From positions 1 to 20,472 of the IMG/VR virus record IMGVR_UViG_3300025282_003282: a stretch of 20,472 nucleotides of DNA. One strand, written 5' to 3'. This DNA is from a virus. A program made the translations under genes and the position numbers. The first letter of the stretch is position 1; each line of letters begins with the position of its first letter. Under the pieces are notes generated by a model that was given only the letters and a program-made list of their open reading frames with translations, searched no databases and was not told the DNA's origin. Of the stretch, positions 7,612-17,550 are shown in pieces.

Positions 7612-7839
7612 TGATTCCTCTATCGCCTCGTAAGCACCTGGGCGGACAATAATTTCTGGCAACCCATTTTCTGCACGCACCACGTTCGCTTTATCAACGC
7701 ACTCCTGGCAGATAGGTTCACGGACTCCCCCTGGGTCTGGCATTCCGTTGGTAGCCCGAATAGACGGAACTGTCATCGGGTTATACGACATCAACCGGTC
7801 GCATCCGAAACACTTACTATGAAATAATGCGTATCCCAT
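7594..7839 (-). CDS. Small zinc-ribbon protein
   Basis: The reverse-strand protein starts MGYALFHSKCFGCDRLMSYN and contains CFGC followed later by PICQECVDKAN, giving a four-cysteine zinc ribbon, then an acidic tail PGAYEAIEES. Small proteins of this design are frequent in siphophages, where their function is unknown. Two adjacent ATGs exist (7842 and 7839). The second is preferred because GGAGG then lies six bases upstream, exactly as in the methyltransferase gene at 9068, whose start region is nearly identical. The methyltransferase stop overlaps this start. The gene ends inside the convergent tail gene. Confidence 0.8.
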   Translation of the reverse strand: MGYALFHSKCFGCDRLMSYNPMTVPSIRATNGMPDPGGVREPICQECVDKANVVRAENGLPEIIVRPGAYEAIEESLLDYS

Positions 7840-9068
7840 CATAATCCTCCGATAAGAGGCAATGGAACATTTCCAATCCTCATTTTAGCTAAATTTAGAT
7901 ATTCCCTGTTGAGGTCTGTGCCTATGGACTTTCTTCCAAACTTCTGAGCCACAGCCAGGGTGGTTCCCGACCCAACGAATGGGTCGAGGACAGTGGCTGG
8001 CACAACGTCAGCATTACAGGTGCAGGTGGGTTCCCACCCAATGGTGTTGTGTTTAGGTGGCACATTCTGAGGATGCTTTTTAGGTTGGCGATTAGTGTAT
8101 GCGTCTGGCTTGCCTTCGTTGGTTCTCCATGCTTTACCGCTACTAATCAAAGCGGCGTATTCTTCTGTCAATTCAACAATACGTTTCCACGACTTGCCAC
8201 ACTGAGCGCACACGCCCTTCTCTGAAGAACCTGCAAGGATACATGGCTCGACTAACTTTTCTGGAAACGTAGCAAAGTGGGCTTCCTTGTATGGCTGAGT
8301 AGTTACTTCCCATACGGTGCGCTTATTCTTTCCAAGTGGGTGGTCTATAAGACTTCCATCTGCCTTGTAATGCCCACTATGCCCTTTGAGGCCAGTACCA
8401 CCGCCATCATACGTGGCATCAGGGTATTTAGAGTCAATCTCCCATACGGAGCGCTTGTTACGCCCTTGCTCAATATTGCCAGCGGCTTTCAGATTTCCGT
8501 TTGTTTTTTGTCCACCGTGTCCTCTGGTTGTTCCTACTTGATTAGCTACATCCTGCTGTAATCTGCTTACAGAACTAGGCAATAGTCGCTCCCTTATCGC
8601 ATCAGCATCGTAGTAATACTGGGAACTCTTGGTCAGCAGGAATATATATTCGTGTGCTTTGGTGGGCCTGTCGGTTACGCTTTCAGGCATTGGGTTTGGC
8701 TTGCTCCAGATAATGTCAGACCGGAGATACCAGCCGTCCGCCTGGAGTGCAAAGGCCACACGCCACGGTATGCCCACGAGGTCTTTCTCATTATAACTAT
8801 CACCAAGGTTCATCCAGACCGTTCCACTTGGCTTCAGTACACGCCAGACCTCACGGAATACCTCTACCATATTGGCGCAGTACGCTTCTGGGGTTGGCTC
8901 AAGCCCGATGCCCTCTTCCTCTAGCTCATAATCTCTAAGGCCCCAATAAGGCGGACTAGTACAAACGCAGTCCACGCTATTGTCCGGTAGAGGTAGGCTA
9001 CGAGCGTCAGCCTGGTACAGCCGTGCAAGCCCATTGTCAAAAATCAAATTATCATTAGCGTATCCCAT
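7839..9068 (-). CDS. SPPY-type DNA amino-methyltransferase (N4-cytosine or N6-adenine)
   Basis: This protein of 409 residues transfers a methyl group from S-adenosylmethionine to an exocyclic amine in DNA. Motif IV TSPPYW is at residues 37-42 and motif I DPFVGSGTT at about 362-370, so the order is IV then I, as in the beta group. SPPY is commoner in N4-cytosine enzymes, but N6-adenine is not excluded. The region between holds a CAQC pair and a CTC group that may bind zinc, and an internal duplication around NKRSVWEI and NKRTVWEV. The start at 9068 is chosen over an upstream in-frame ATG (9104) because GGGAGG lies six bases before it. No restriction enzyme gene is adjacent. Confidence 0.9.
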   Translation of the reverse strand: MGYANDNLIFDNGLARLYQADARSLPLPDNSVDCVCTSPPYWGLRDYELEEEGIGLEPTPEAYCANMVEVFREVWRVLKPSGTVWMNLGDSYNEKDLVGIPWRVAFALQADGWYLRSDIIWSKPNPMPESVTDRPTKAHEYIFLLTKSSQYYYDADAIRERLLPSSVSRLQQDVANQVGTTRGHGGQKTNGNLKAAGNIEQGRNKRSVWEIDSKYPDATYDGGGTGLKGHSGHYKADGSLIDHPLGKNKRTVWEVTTQPYKEAHFATFPEKLVEPCILAGSSEKGVCAQCGKSWKRIVELTEEYAALISSGKAWRTNEGKPDAYTNRQPKKHPQNVPPKHNTIGWEPTCTCNADVVPATVLDPFVGSGTTLAVAQKFGRKSIGTDLNREYLNLAKMRIGNVPLPLIGGL

Positions 9069-9219
9069 TATAATCCTCCCCTGGTGGGTGTTCCTCGCAG
9101 TCAAACTTACTCCCTAAACCGCACTCACTGCACAACCCAATGATTCCTTCCTCGTTAGCTTCTAGGTCATCGCCTGGCTCAGAGTAACAGCAAATTGAGA
9201 GCCATTCACAGTTGTGCAT
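9055..9219 (-). CDS. Small cysteine-rich (C4) protein
   Basis: A 54-residue reverse-strand protein begins MHNCEWLSICCYSEP and contains WLSICC, LCSECG and FDCE, suggesting a zinc-binding ribbon. A longer open frame extends upstream to 9447 but overlaps the preceding gene almost entirely. The short start is supported by an AGGA site (ATGAGGAACACG) just before ATG at 9219. It overlaps the previous gene by 14 bases and the methyltransferase start by 14 bases, so translation is probably coupled. The cysteine pattern resembles the 44-residue protein at 11453, suggesting a distant paralogue. Function is unknown. Confidence 0.6.
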   Translation of the reverse strand: MHNCEWLSICCYSEPGDDLEANEEGIIGLCSECGLGSKFDCEEHPPGEDYNGIR

Positions 9220-15677: not shown

Positions 15678-15890
15678 ATGAAATTTTTGCTGAGGTTCTT
15701 GCCCAAGGAATATCGGGCTTTGCTAGAGTTGGGGATGAGGATTGTCGAAAACCTGGATACGAAAGAGGAGCGACAGAAGGCAGTAGAAATGGGCATAGAG
15801 ATTCTAAAGGATGGGGTTATTGGTGCGCCAGAATGGGCGAAATTTGGCAAAGCCCTTGGAATTTGGAACAAACCAAAAAACGGCTCGTAG
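15678..15890 (+). CDS. Hypothetical small helical protein
   Basis: A 70-residue protein with sequence MKFLLRFLPKEYRALLELGM at the start, then KEERQKAVEMGIEILKDG and GAPEWAKFGKALGIW. It is amphipathic helical, with no membrane segment strong enough to call a holin. GAGAGGAGTGAG precedes the ATG. Small proteins of this kind are seen in phages, without a known role. It sits between the resolvase and the methyltransferase. Confidence 0.75.
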   Translation: MKFLLRFLPKEYRALLELGMRIVENLDTKEERQKAVEMGIEILKDGVIGAPEWAKFGKALGIWNKPKNGS

Positions 15891-15893
15891 CCA

Positions 15894-16493
15894 ATGACTG
15901 AAAAAACAACACTTACAGAACTGAGTCTATTTACTGGATTCGGCGGTTTTTCGCTGGGTTTGCGCCTGGCTGGACTCAAGACAAGGACAATTGGTTATGT
16001 TGAAATCGAACCCTACTGCCAGGAACTCCTCCGAGCAAGAATACGAGACGGCTTGCTTGATTGGGCGCCAATCATTAGAGATGTTAGAAGTGCCGATTTT
16101 AGACCAATGGCCGGAATGGTGGATATCATCACAGCTGGCTTCCCTTGCCAGCCCCATTCCAAGGCTGGACTGCGTAAAGGAGAACAGGACGAACGAAACC
16201 TCTGGCCTGATACACTCAGAGTTATCCGAGAAACCAAGCCAAGGTACGCCCTACTCGAAAACGTCCCAGGGCTATTATCCTCCACAGGAAATAGCGACAT
16301 GGAATCAACAGGCTCAGCGCTGGGAGACGTTACAATTGGGACTCCTGGGTATGCGGCAACAATTGTCGGGCAGCTTGCCGAAATCGGGTATGACTGCGAA
16401 TGGCATATTGTATCCGCCGAAGATGCAGGAGCGCCACACCTTAGAGAAAGATGGTGGTGTTTTGCCCACAAAGTGGCCGACTCCGAGGGTTAG
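15894..16493 (+). CDS. C5 cytosine methyltransferase, N-terminal half (motifs I-VIII)
   Basis: A 199-residue product with the catalytic part of an m5C DNA methyltransferase: motif I FTGFGGFSLG (residues 13-22), motif IV GFPCQPHSKAG (82-92, catalytic Cys85), motif VI ENVPG (122-126) and motif VIII HLRERWWCFA (182-191). It stops at TAG 16491, before any target recognition domain or motif X, so by itself it lacks parts a usual enzyme of over 300 residues needs. Those parts are in the +1 frame of the overlapping gene at 15991. Candidates are a two-subunit enzyme, a frameshifted product, or a relic. Split C5 enzymes with overlapping genes (M.AquI, M.EcoHK31I) are known precedents. Confidence 0.85.
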   Translation: MTEKTTLTELSLFTGFGGFSLGLRLAGLKTRTIGYVEIEPYCQELLRARIRDGLLDWAPIIRDVRSADFRPMAGMVDIITAGFPCQPHSKAGLRKGEQDERNLWPDTLRVIRETKPRYALLENVPGLLSSTGNSDMESTGSALGDVTIGTPGYAATIVGQLAEIGYDCEWHIVSAEDAGAPHLRERWWCFAHKVADSEG

Positions 16494-17550
16494 CGGACAA
16501 GAAGGTTATGACACAAGGGCTGCCAGAAAAGGACACGACACGGCAATGTCATATCTTGAATCTGCTGTTGAATACCATGAAAAGCAGGTCAAGTGGCCTA
16601 CTCCGACAGCAACTGATAGTTCCGTTGGTCATGCGAGAACTCCCGAAAACATGGTGCGGAAGGATGGAAGAAATGTTCTCCGCACTCCTAATTTGGCAGA
16701 AACAATACTACAGGAGAATGACTTCCCTTATACCAAGCAGGACTTGGCAATGAAAGAAAAAGGTGAAGATTATACAGTGGCAAAACGACTCTGGCCTACT
16801 CCGAGTTCAATGCCTCGTGGCCCACACACTGGAAGGGATTATGATGGCTTGCAGACTGTCAGCAAGACCACAGGGACAAAGTTTGGCATGACTCTGGAAA
16901 CAGCAATCAAGCACTACCCAACACCAACGGCAAGCGACCACAATGGATGGAGTCCGGGCCACAAACGTGCAGACATTCCGAACAACAGGCTCGATTTCAT
17001 GGTAGAGAGTGAAGCGCATAACAAGAACTGGCCTACTCCGAGGGCAGGGAACCCAGGAAGCAGAGCGCCTGGTACAGGGGGAAAAGTTCTCAACGAGGAA
17101 GTAAAGAGGTGGCCTACTCCGACAGTTATGGAAGCTGGCAAGATGAGCAACCGCCCAAACTACGGCCAAATGGGATTGAGTAATCATCCAGCTATTGTCG
17201 GACTTCCAACCAGGGCAAAGGGGAAACAATCTATGAAAAACGATGGCACACGCCCATCGGAAAATCCTCGGAAAAGGGATTCGCAAAATGCAGTATTATC
17301 TTCAAAATGGGTCACCTGGCTTATGGGATTGCCCCTGGGGTGGGTAGCGCTGGAACCGTTGCCGAAAGAAGCGTATGACGAGTGGTTTGAGAGAACAACC
17401 AACCAGGCTTGGTGGGAAGAAGAACAAGGGCTACCCAGGGCAGCCCCATCAGAAGTTGAAAGGACAAACAAACTAAAGGCCCTTGGGAACGGTATAGTGC
17501 CAGCAACAATAGCAGTATTGCTGAACGACCGGATTCGCATTTATGGATAA
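15991..17550 (+). CDS. C5 methyltransferase C-terminal partner: target recognition and motif X, with WPTP repeats
   Basis: A frame of up to 519 residues overlaps the N-terminal half by about 500 bases in a different frame. Starts: TTG 15991 or ATG 15997, with AAGGA upstream. The stretch LPKSGMTANGILYPP (about 129-143) matches a motif common in phage methyltransferase-type proteins, and is followed by six WPTP or YPTP units at nucleotides 16474, 16594, 16792, 16915, 17029 and 17110. The end carries VTWLMGLPLGWV and the motif X-type ALGNGIVPATIAVLL. It is therefore the target recognition domain plus motif X. Whether it works in trans with the 199-residue product is inferred. Confidence 0.75.
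   Translation: MVMLKSNPTARNSSEQEYETACLIGRQSLEMLEVPILDQWPEWWISSQLASLASPIPRLDCVKENRTNETSGLIHSELSEKPSQGTPYSKTSQGYYPPQEIATWNQQAQRWETLQLGLLGMRQQLSGSLPKSGMTANGILYPPKMQERHTLEKDGGVLPTKWPTPRVSGQEGYDTRAARKGHDTAMSYLESAVEYHEKQVKWPTPTATDSSVGHARTPENMVRKDGRNVLRTPNLAETILQENDFPYTKQDLAMKEKGEDYTVAKRLWPTPSSMPRGPHTGRDYDGLQTVSKTTGTKFGMTLETAIKHYPTPTASDHNGWSPGHKRADIPNNRLDFMVESEAHNKNWPTPRAGNPGSRAPGTGGKVLNEEVKRWPTPTVMEAGKMSNRPNYGQMGLSNHPAIVGLPTRAKGKQSMKNDGTRPSENPRKRDSQNAVLSSKWVTWLMGLPLGWVALEPLPKEAYDEWFERTTNQAWWEEEQGLPRAAPSEVERTNKLKALGNGIVPATIAVLLNDRIRIYG

Follow-up and report, generated by a model that had tools for sequence, protein, structure and literature searches.

The window analysed here is a stretch of viral DNA of 20,472 nucleotides, and at 15894-17550 it carries the parts of a C5-cytosine methyltransferase in two overlapping reading frames, which we refer to as P1 (alpha) and P2 (beta, in the +1 frame). 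The features of the locus are listed below.

15894..16493, + strand: P1 (alpha), the catalytic part of a C5-cytosine methyltransferase, motifs I-VIII (199 aa, PF00145)
15983..15987, + strand: AAGGA, candidate Shine-Dalgarno site 9 nt upstream of the P2 ATG at 15997
15997..17550, + strand: P2 (beta), +1 frame, 517 aa; N-terminal part overprinted on P1, then the WPTP repeats and motifs IX and X
15997..16493, + strand: dual-coded overlap of P1 and P2, 497 nt
16137..16154, + strand: P1 motif IV GFPCQP, with the catalytic Cys
16384..16413, + strand: P2 SGMTANGILY, in DNA that P1 reads as GYDCEWHIV
16428..16451, + strand: P1 motif VIII GAPHLRER
16474..17121, + strand: P2 WPTP-type modules, six W/YPTP and one LRTP, the presumed target-recognition region
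17296..17343, + strand: P2 LSSKWVTWLMGLPLGW, the motif IX equivalent, which aligns with LTPREC-RLQGFP of conventional C5 enzymes, adjoining motif X
17467..17523, + strand: P2 NKLKALGNGIVPATIAVLL, motif X in the P2 frame

In profile searches P1 matched PF00145 (E 5.4e-39) and also phrog_363. Motifs I, IV (PCQ), VI (ENV) and VIII are all present in P1, with their residues conserved in alignment, and the protein ends right after motif VIII, without a recognition domain, motif IX or motif X. The +1 frame has no stop across 15925-17550 and contains SGMTANGILYPP, the WPTP repeats and the motif X peptide LKALGNGIVP; motifs IX and X of the window enzyme are both located in P2, and the overlap runs across motifs IV-VIII. 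The first-pass annotation had described a frame from 15894 that carries motifs I-VIII and stops at 16493, and a +1 frame that carries the recognition part and motif X and stays open through the overlap. Both descriptions held, and the peptides quoted there for 16360-16490 are present in both frames. The P2 start at about 15991 and the overlap of about 500 bases were refined to ATG 15997 and 497 nt; this ATG is the likely start, given the AAGGA 9 nt upstream, with TTG 15991 as an alternative. PHROG families were the only matches of the window P2 (best phrog_1008, E 2.6e-24), and profile searches of Pfam and NCBIfam with it gave no match. All of the 101 P2 relatives that were scanned also matched phrog_1008, and none of the 101 had a meaningful Pfam or NCBIfam family. 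Window P1 carries an odd insertion of 20-25 aa ahead of motif VIII (GNSDMESTGSALGDVTIGTPG). A second DNA methyltransferase (phrog_67; 7839-9104, - strand) sits among the tail and replication genes of the window.

We evaluated the second frame of the window by a permutation test in which the P1 amino acids were fixed and synonymous codons were shuffled. The +1 frame of the overlap was open in 1 of 5000 shuffles, the mean being 4.3 stops, and the SGM signature of window P2 scored 54.9 bits, compared to 23.9 +/- 7.3 with a maximum of 48.8 in 500 shuffles, using an HMM built without the window sequence. The same overlap is present in IMG/VR contigs 3300008219_000241 and 3300009605_003974, identical in one and with a single substitution at 16154 in the other, and the entire P1/P2 cassette is unchanged in one relative contig. 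The presence of the overlap in independent contigs led us to reject an assembly or sequencing frameshift. There was no moderately diverged relative for a direct rate test on the window's own overlap, and the bulk of the window's P2 recognition region falls outside it. The two contigs (L001/L002) are unrelated to the window before ~15677 and near-identical beyond, a mosaic breakpoint that coincides with the start of a 70-aa gene (15678-15890) upstream of P1.

Relatives were collected from IMG/VR by P1 and by P2, from GTDB genomes by P2, and from individual phage records. Each of the three forward frames was then matched against separate profiles of motifs I-VIII, the SGM segment, motif X and the WLMG segment, which corresponds to motif IX. 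These profiles derive from the same family, and the classification of loci rests on score thresholds. The P1-only sample was the best 80 of 600 candidates, representing a clade near the window and not all C5 enzymes; the set fetched by P1 alone contains 71 non-redundant loci. Nested loci, with SGM and WLMG in the +1 frame and motif X in the P1 frame, accounted for 156 of the 218 non-redundant loci, and 34 were of the window type, with SGM, WLMG and motif X all in +1. The WLMG segment and motif X lie in the P1 frame in 11 of the 218, with the SGM/WPTP part still in +1. Motif X was found in P1 for 159 loci, in P2 for 34 and in both for one (L201). A single continuous frame joining motif VIII to WPTP, which the first-pass annotation had named as the sign of a plain frameshift, was sought in the 218 non-redundant loci and found in none. 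The GTDB hits to the P2 query came from Alpha- and Gammaproteobacteria, Spirochaetes, Bacillota, Actinomycetota, archaea and others. The 218 viral and bacterial loci show the two-frame layout to be the usual state of a large C5 methyltransferase family.

The +1 frame is depleted of stops in these relatives. Across the 71 P1-sampled loci it contained 130 stops before motif IV, compared to 130.4 expected, and 2 from motif IV to VIII, compared to 141.6 expected; where WLMG is in +1 and motif X in P1 (159 loci), no stop at all occurred past motif IV, against ~288 expected. The depletion sets in just upstream of motif IV, and we read this boundary as marking the P2 start. As controls, seven phage C5 enzymes of the conventional kind, whose recognition domain is in frame, had 82 stops against 80.3 expected; these seven therefore show no +1 stop depletion. 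The motif IX signature in +1 scored 34 bits in the P1-sampled nested loci, compared to 0.9 in permutations, and the observed score topped every permutation in 58 of 59 such loci. P2 pN/pS was below 1 in all 35 independent P2-aligned pairs (mostly 0.04-0.6), and P1 pN/pS was mostly above 1 in the same pairs. Substitution rates throughout are simple counts, and the 35 pairs were picked by P2 similarity, so that the frame-neutral test described below carries the weight. Two trivial explanations were rejected: a second frame open by chance or as a by-product of P1 constraint was ruled out by the codon permutations, and selection bias from P2-chosen loci was ruled out by the P1-only sampling and by pairs chosen on the catalytic domain. 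The initial claim of dual coding, as opposed to a plain frameshift mutation, held and is supported well beyond the window; the outcome that would have pointed to a plain frameshift, a second frame without constraint, failed, the +1 frame being strongly constrained in relatives.

In motifs I-III, 62% of substitutions fell at P1 third positions, the usual pattern. For the frame-neutral test, 19 independent pairs were picked on similarity of the catalytic domain alone, and their nucleotide sequences were aligned. Between motifs VIII and X of these pairs, substitutions at P2 positions 3:1:2 numbered 580:188:144, where P2 position 3 is P1 position 1, and P2 is therefore the selected frame in this region. 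The reverse test, with P2 fixed, gave 58 P1-frame stops between VIII and X against 606 expected, and the P1 frame was fully open there in 146 of 151 loci, compared to 9.5 expected. The P2-biased substitutions together with the openness of P1 indicate that the VIII-X part of P1 serves as a linker, on which selection acts mainly to keep it open. An AF2 model of a nested P1 (L021) had residues 1-167 mostly at pLDDT >90, residues 168-276 below 50 and a motif X helix of high confidence, and its fold matches M.HaeIII / M.HhaI over ~170 residues. These results show that both frames are under selection, that P2 is constrained between VIII and X, and that the motifs are split complementarily between the two proteins. 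The evidence points to a P1 without a recognition domain of its own, and P1 has no other candidate for one.

The WLMG segment of P2 (LNPxWVEWLMGxPxGW) aligns with motif IX of conventional enzymes (LTPRECxRLQGFPxxF). It directly precedes motif X in the P1 frame, the order of ordinary enzymes, in Leucobacter-like loci and in L208, L257 and L265, which are actinobacterial and alphaproteobacterial relatives. In the nested loci P2 motif IX and P1 motif X occupy overlapping nucleotides, for example VEPxLDRVADGVADRVDR in P1 and LNPxWIEWLMGLPIGWT in P2. Motif X switches frames and is nearly always present exactly once, which is evidence for a single enzyme divided between two chains. The number of WPTP modules per P2 ranges from 0 to 7 across the family. 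By position and elimination, these modules are the best candidate for the recognition region, without support from a fold: an AF2 model of isolated P2 was poor (pLDDT 60, pTM 0.28) and did not show a recognition-domain fold, and a P2 profile search of the PDB returned no C5 enzyme, only two insignificant hits. The W/YPTP module resembles a tandem unit with gains and losses across the P2 family. A segment of ~45 aa (RTPENMVRKDGRNVLRTPNLAETILQENDFPYTKQDLAMKEKGEDY, window 16640-16800) is highly similar in the P2 of the alphaproteobacterial L208, where it overlaps P1, as it does not in the window. The L201 locus (133-1955) has a nested P1/P2 pair followed by a second copy, in which P1' is without motifs I-IV and has a broken motif X, and P2' (347 codons) is fully open with motif IX intact, possibly as a spare specificity subunit.

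The suggestion that the SGMT/WPTP family was born as an alternate reading of motif VIII proved half right. Shuffles keeping only the P1 amino acids still gave the SGM segment 24-31 bits out of its 55-63, and P1 therefore dictates part of the SGM motif; motif VIII is not the source of the WPTP modules or of motif IX. We regard P2 as the other half of the same enzyme and not an unrelated protein, because it carries motif IX and, in the window, also motif X.

With regard to how P2 is made, an ATG or GTG with a Shine-Dalgarno-like site opens the +1 stretch in 129 of 159 nested loci, a count for which there was no chance control. The P2 ATG lies 4 nt after the P1 start codon (ATGNATG) in 49 nested loci, often with one common Shine-Dalgarno site; these include L044, L021, L229, L260 and Acinetobacter phage ABMM1 (AGGAGACCAAATGAATGAG). 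In the ATGNATG loci the P1 and P2 genes are almost fully coextensive. A gene expressed by frameshifting would have a second frame that is open or constrained only past the shift site, and the locus does not meet this criterion, the +1 frame being stop-free from just before motif IV.

We propose that the locus encodes one two-subunit C5-cytosine methyltransferase, made as two separately translated polypeptides from overlapping frames; we consider this likely (probability of roughly 0.82), with expression and activity inferred. P1 would bind AdoMet and supply the catalytic cysteine (motifs I-VIII). P2, begun at an ATG inside P1, would contribute motifs IX and X together with the target-recognition part, and the active enzyme formed by the two chains would modify DNA of the phage or its host. 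P1 of most relatives extends to its own motif X; its VIII-X part would be a linker kept open and unselected for sequence because the same DNA encodes, in +1, motif IX and the recognition domain of P2. Separate translation of P2, its assembly with P1, recognition by P2 and methylation are all inferred, as there are no translation or activity data. By a narrow margin we also favor a bolder reading, that the annotated enzyme of the whole phage and prophage family has no recognition domain and would take its specificity from an overprinted phrog_1008 subunit, whose motif IX shares DNA with P1 motif X. If this is true, it is in one frame that specificity evolves, with nothing but openness maintained in the other, and additional P2 copies such as the one in L201 could act as exchangeable specificity subunits.

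We considered the possibility that P2 is a separate protein (a regulator, anti-restriction or nuclease-like protein) nested by chance and not a subunit. No Pfam family or PDB homologue was detected for P2, and out-of-frame passengers are known in phage methylase genes (the HNH element, PMC11855218), both of which would fit. Against it, P2 has motif IX, which adjoins motif X in the P1 frame in L208, L257 and L265; motif X changes frame yet is nearly always present exactly once; and P1 is without another candidate recognition domain. We consider this explanation very unlikely. Programmed +1 ribosomal frameshifting near motif VIII, giving a single-chain enzyme and no free P2, would account for a window P1 that ends just past VIII and a P2 that goes on with the recognition part, IX and X, and the frame change is indeed +1. 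However, frameshifting near VIII needs no open +1 frame from IV to VIII, where stops were 2 against 142; start codons and Shine-Dalgarno-like sites lie ahead of the open stretch in 129 of 159 nested loci, 49 of the nested loci have the P2 ATG 4 nt past the P1 start, and in nested loci P1 translation must also continue in its own frame as far as motif X. This explanation, too, has little chance of being correct. The same low standing applies to the view that the family is dual-coded and the window copy is a decayed, inactive remnant: the insertion before P1 motif VIII and the lack of rate data for the window speak for it, but all catalytic motifs are intact, P2 has IX, X and seven PTP modules with no stops, and one relative contig is unchanged over the whole cassette. 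A plain frameshift mutation or sequencing error, with the second frame open by chance, would explain why window P1 is without the C-terminal part of a normal enzyme but is all but excluded by the same layout in independent contigs, the absence (0 of 218) of a single frame from VIII to WPTP, the window permutation (P = 1/5000) and the strong selection on both frames in relatives.

The two-subunit methyltransferase that we favor resembles, in the way its motifs are divided, M.AquI and M.EcoHK31I, which are known biochemically as two-polypeptide C5 enzymes (PMC3404938). The larger subunit of M.AquI (CYCGRG) has motifs I-VIII and the smaller has the distal variable region and motifs IX-X (PMC3404938). 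The window is split likewise, with I-VIII in alpha and IX-X in beta, but its WPTP modules are all in P2 and its genes overlap by 497 nt across IV-VIII. The overlap of the M.AquI genes is much shorter than 497 nt. The larger subunit of M.EcoHK31I (YGGCCR) has motifs I-VIII and X and the smaller has motif IX (PMC3404938); its beta gene is reportedly nested within alpha in a different frame (Lee, Kam and Shaw 1995). This composition is met by 159 related loci, with P2 in +1, but not by the window, where P2 carries motif X. The predicted TRD of M.EcoHK31I was placed in the larger subunit (PMC3404938), which counts against our reading of P2 as the recognition subunit; in contrast to that published TRD in alpha, the VIII-X part of alpha evolves here as a passenger frame and is predicted to be disordered.

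Two overlapping methyltransferase genes are annotated in Paenibacillus phage Sitara (gp59/gp60, with gp60 as 'g59 internal gene'), and two overlapping DNA methyltransferase genes in Mycobacterium phages TinaFeyge (gp77/gp76) and NiebruSaylor (gp6/gp5); we found no dual-coding or two-subunit analysis of these pairs. Only one frame is annotated in Bipolar, SOVA965, ABMM1 and phiBT1, and in Bipolar and SOVA965 it is the P2 frame. In phage phiBT1 (L293, 1714-2764), P1 corresponds to gp9.1, a methylase that according to its annotation 'may be inactive', and P2 is an unannotated +1 frame, open over 1832-2764 (310 aa), that has motifs IX and X and fills an annotation gap. The presumed recognition half of the family has mostly been missed or misread by annotators. 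The HNH element of the ShiLan phage methylase is likewise a second, out-of-frame protein in a gene open in both frames, but it is a mobile homing insertion, whereas P2 is integral to the methyltransferase family (PMC11855218). The open-access literature that we searched, which did not include the M.EcoHK31I paper, held no report of a general two-frame phenomenon or of an overprinted recognition part. Two-subunit enzymes of this kind were already known; the depth of the overlap, its generality and a P1 without its own recognition domain appear to be new.

The arrangement of M.AquI and M.EcoHK31I, a curiosity of the 1990s, would in this light become the normal state of a large enzyme family. It would account for phage methylases annotated as truncated or possibly inactive, such as phiBT1 gp9.1, and many such enzymes would seem inactive or non-specific when cloned as one ORF. 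The family also offers a clean natural case of dual coding, 200-300 codons long, for which there are hundreds of homologues, a measurable activity and two kinds of internal control, the upstream motifs and the conventional enzymes. With the P1/P2 system, the origin and maintenance of overlapping genes become directly testable.
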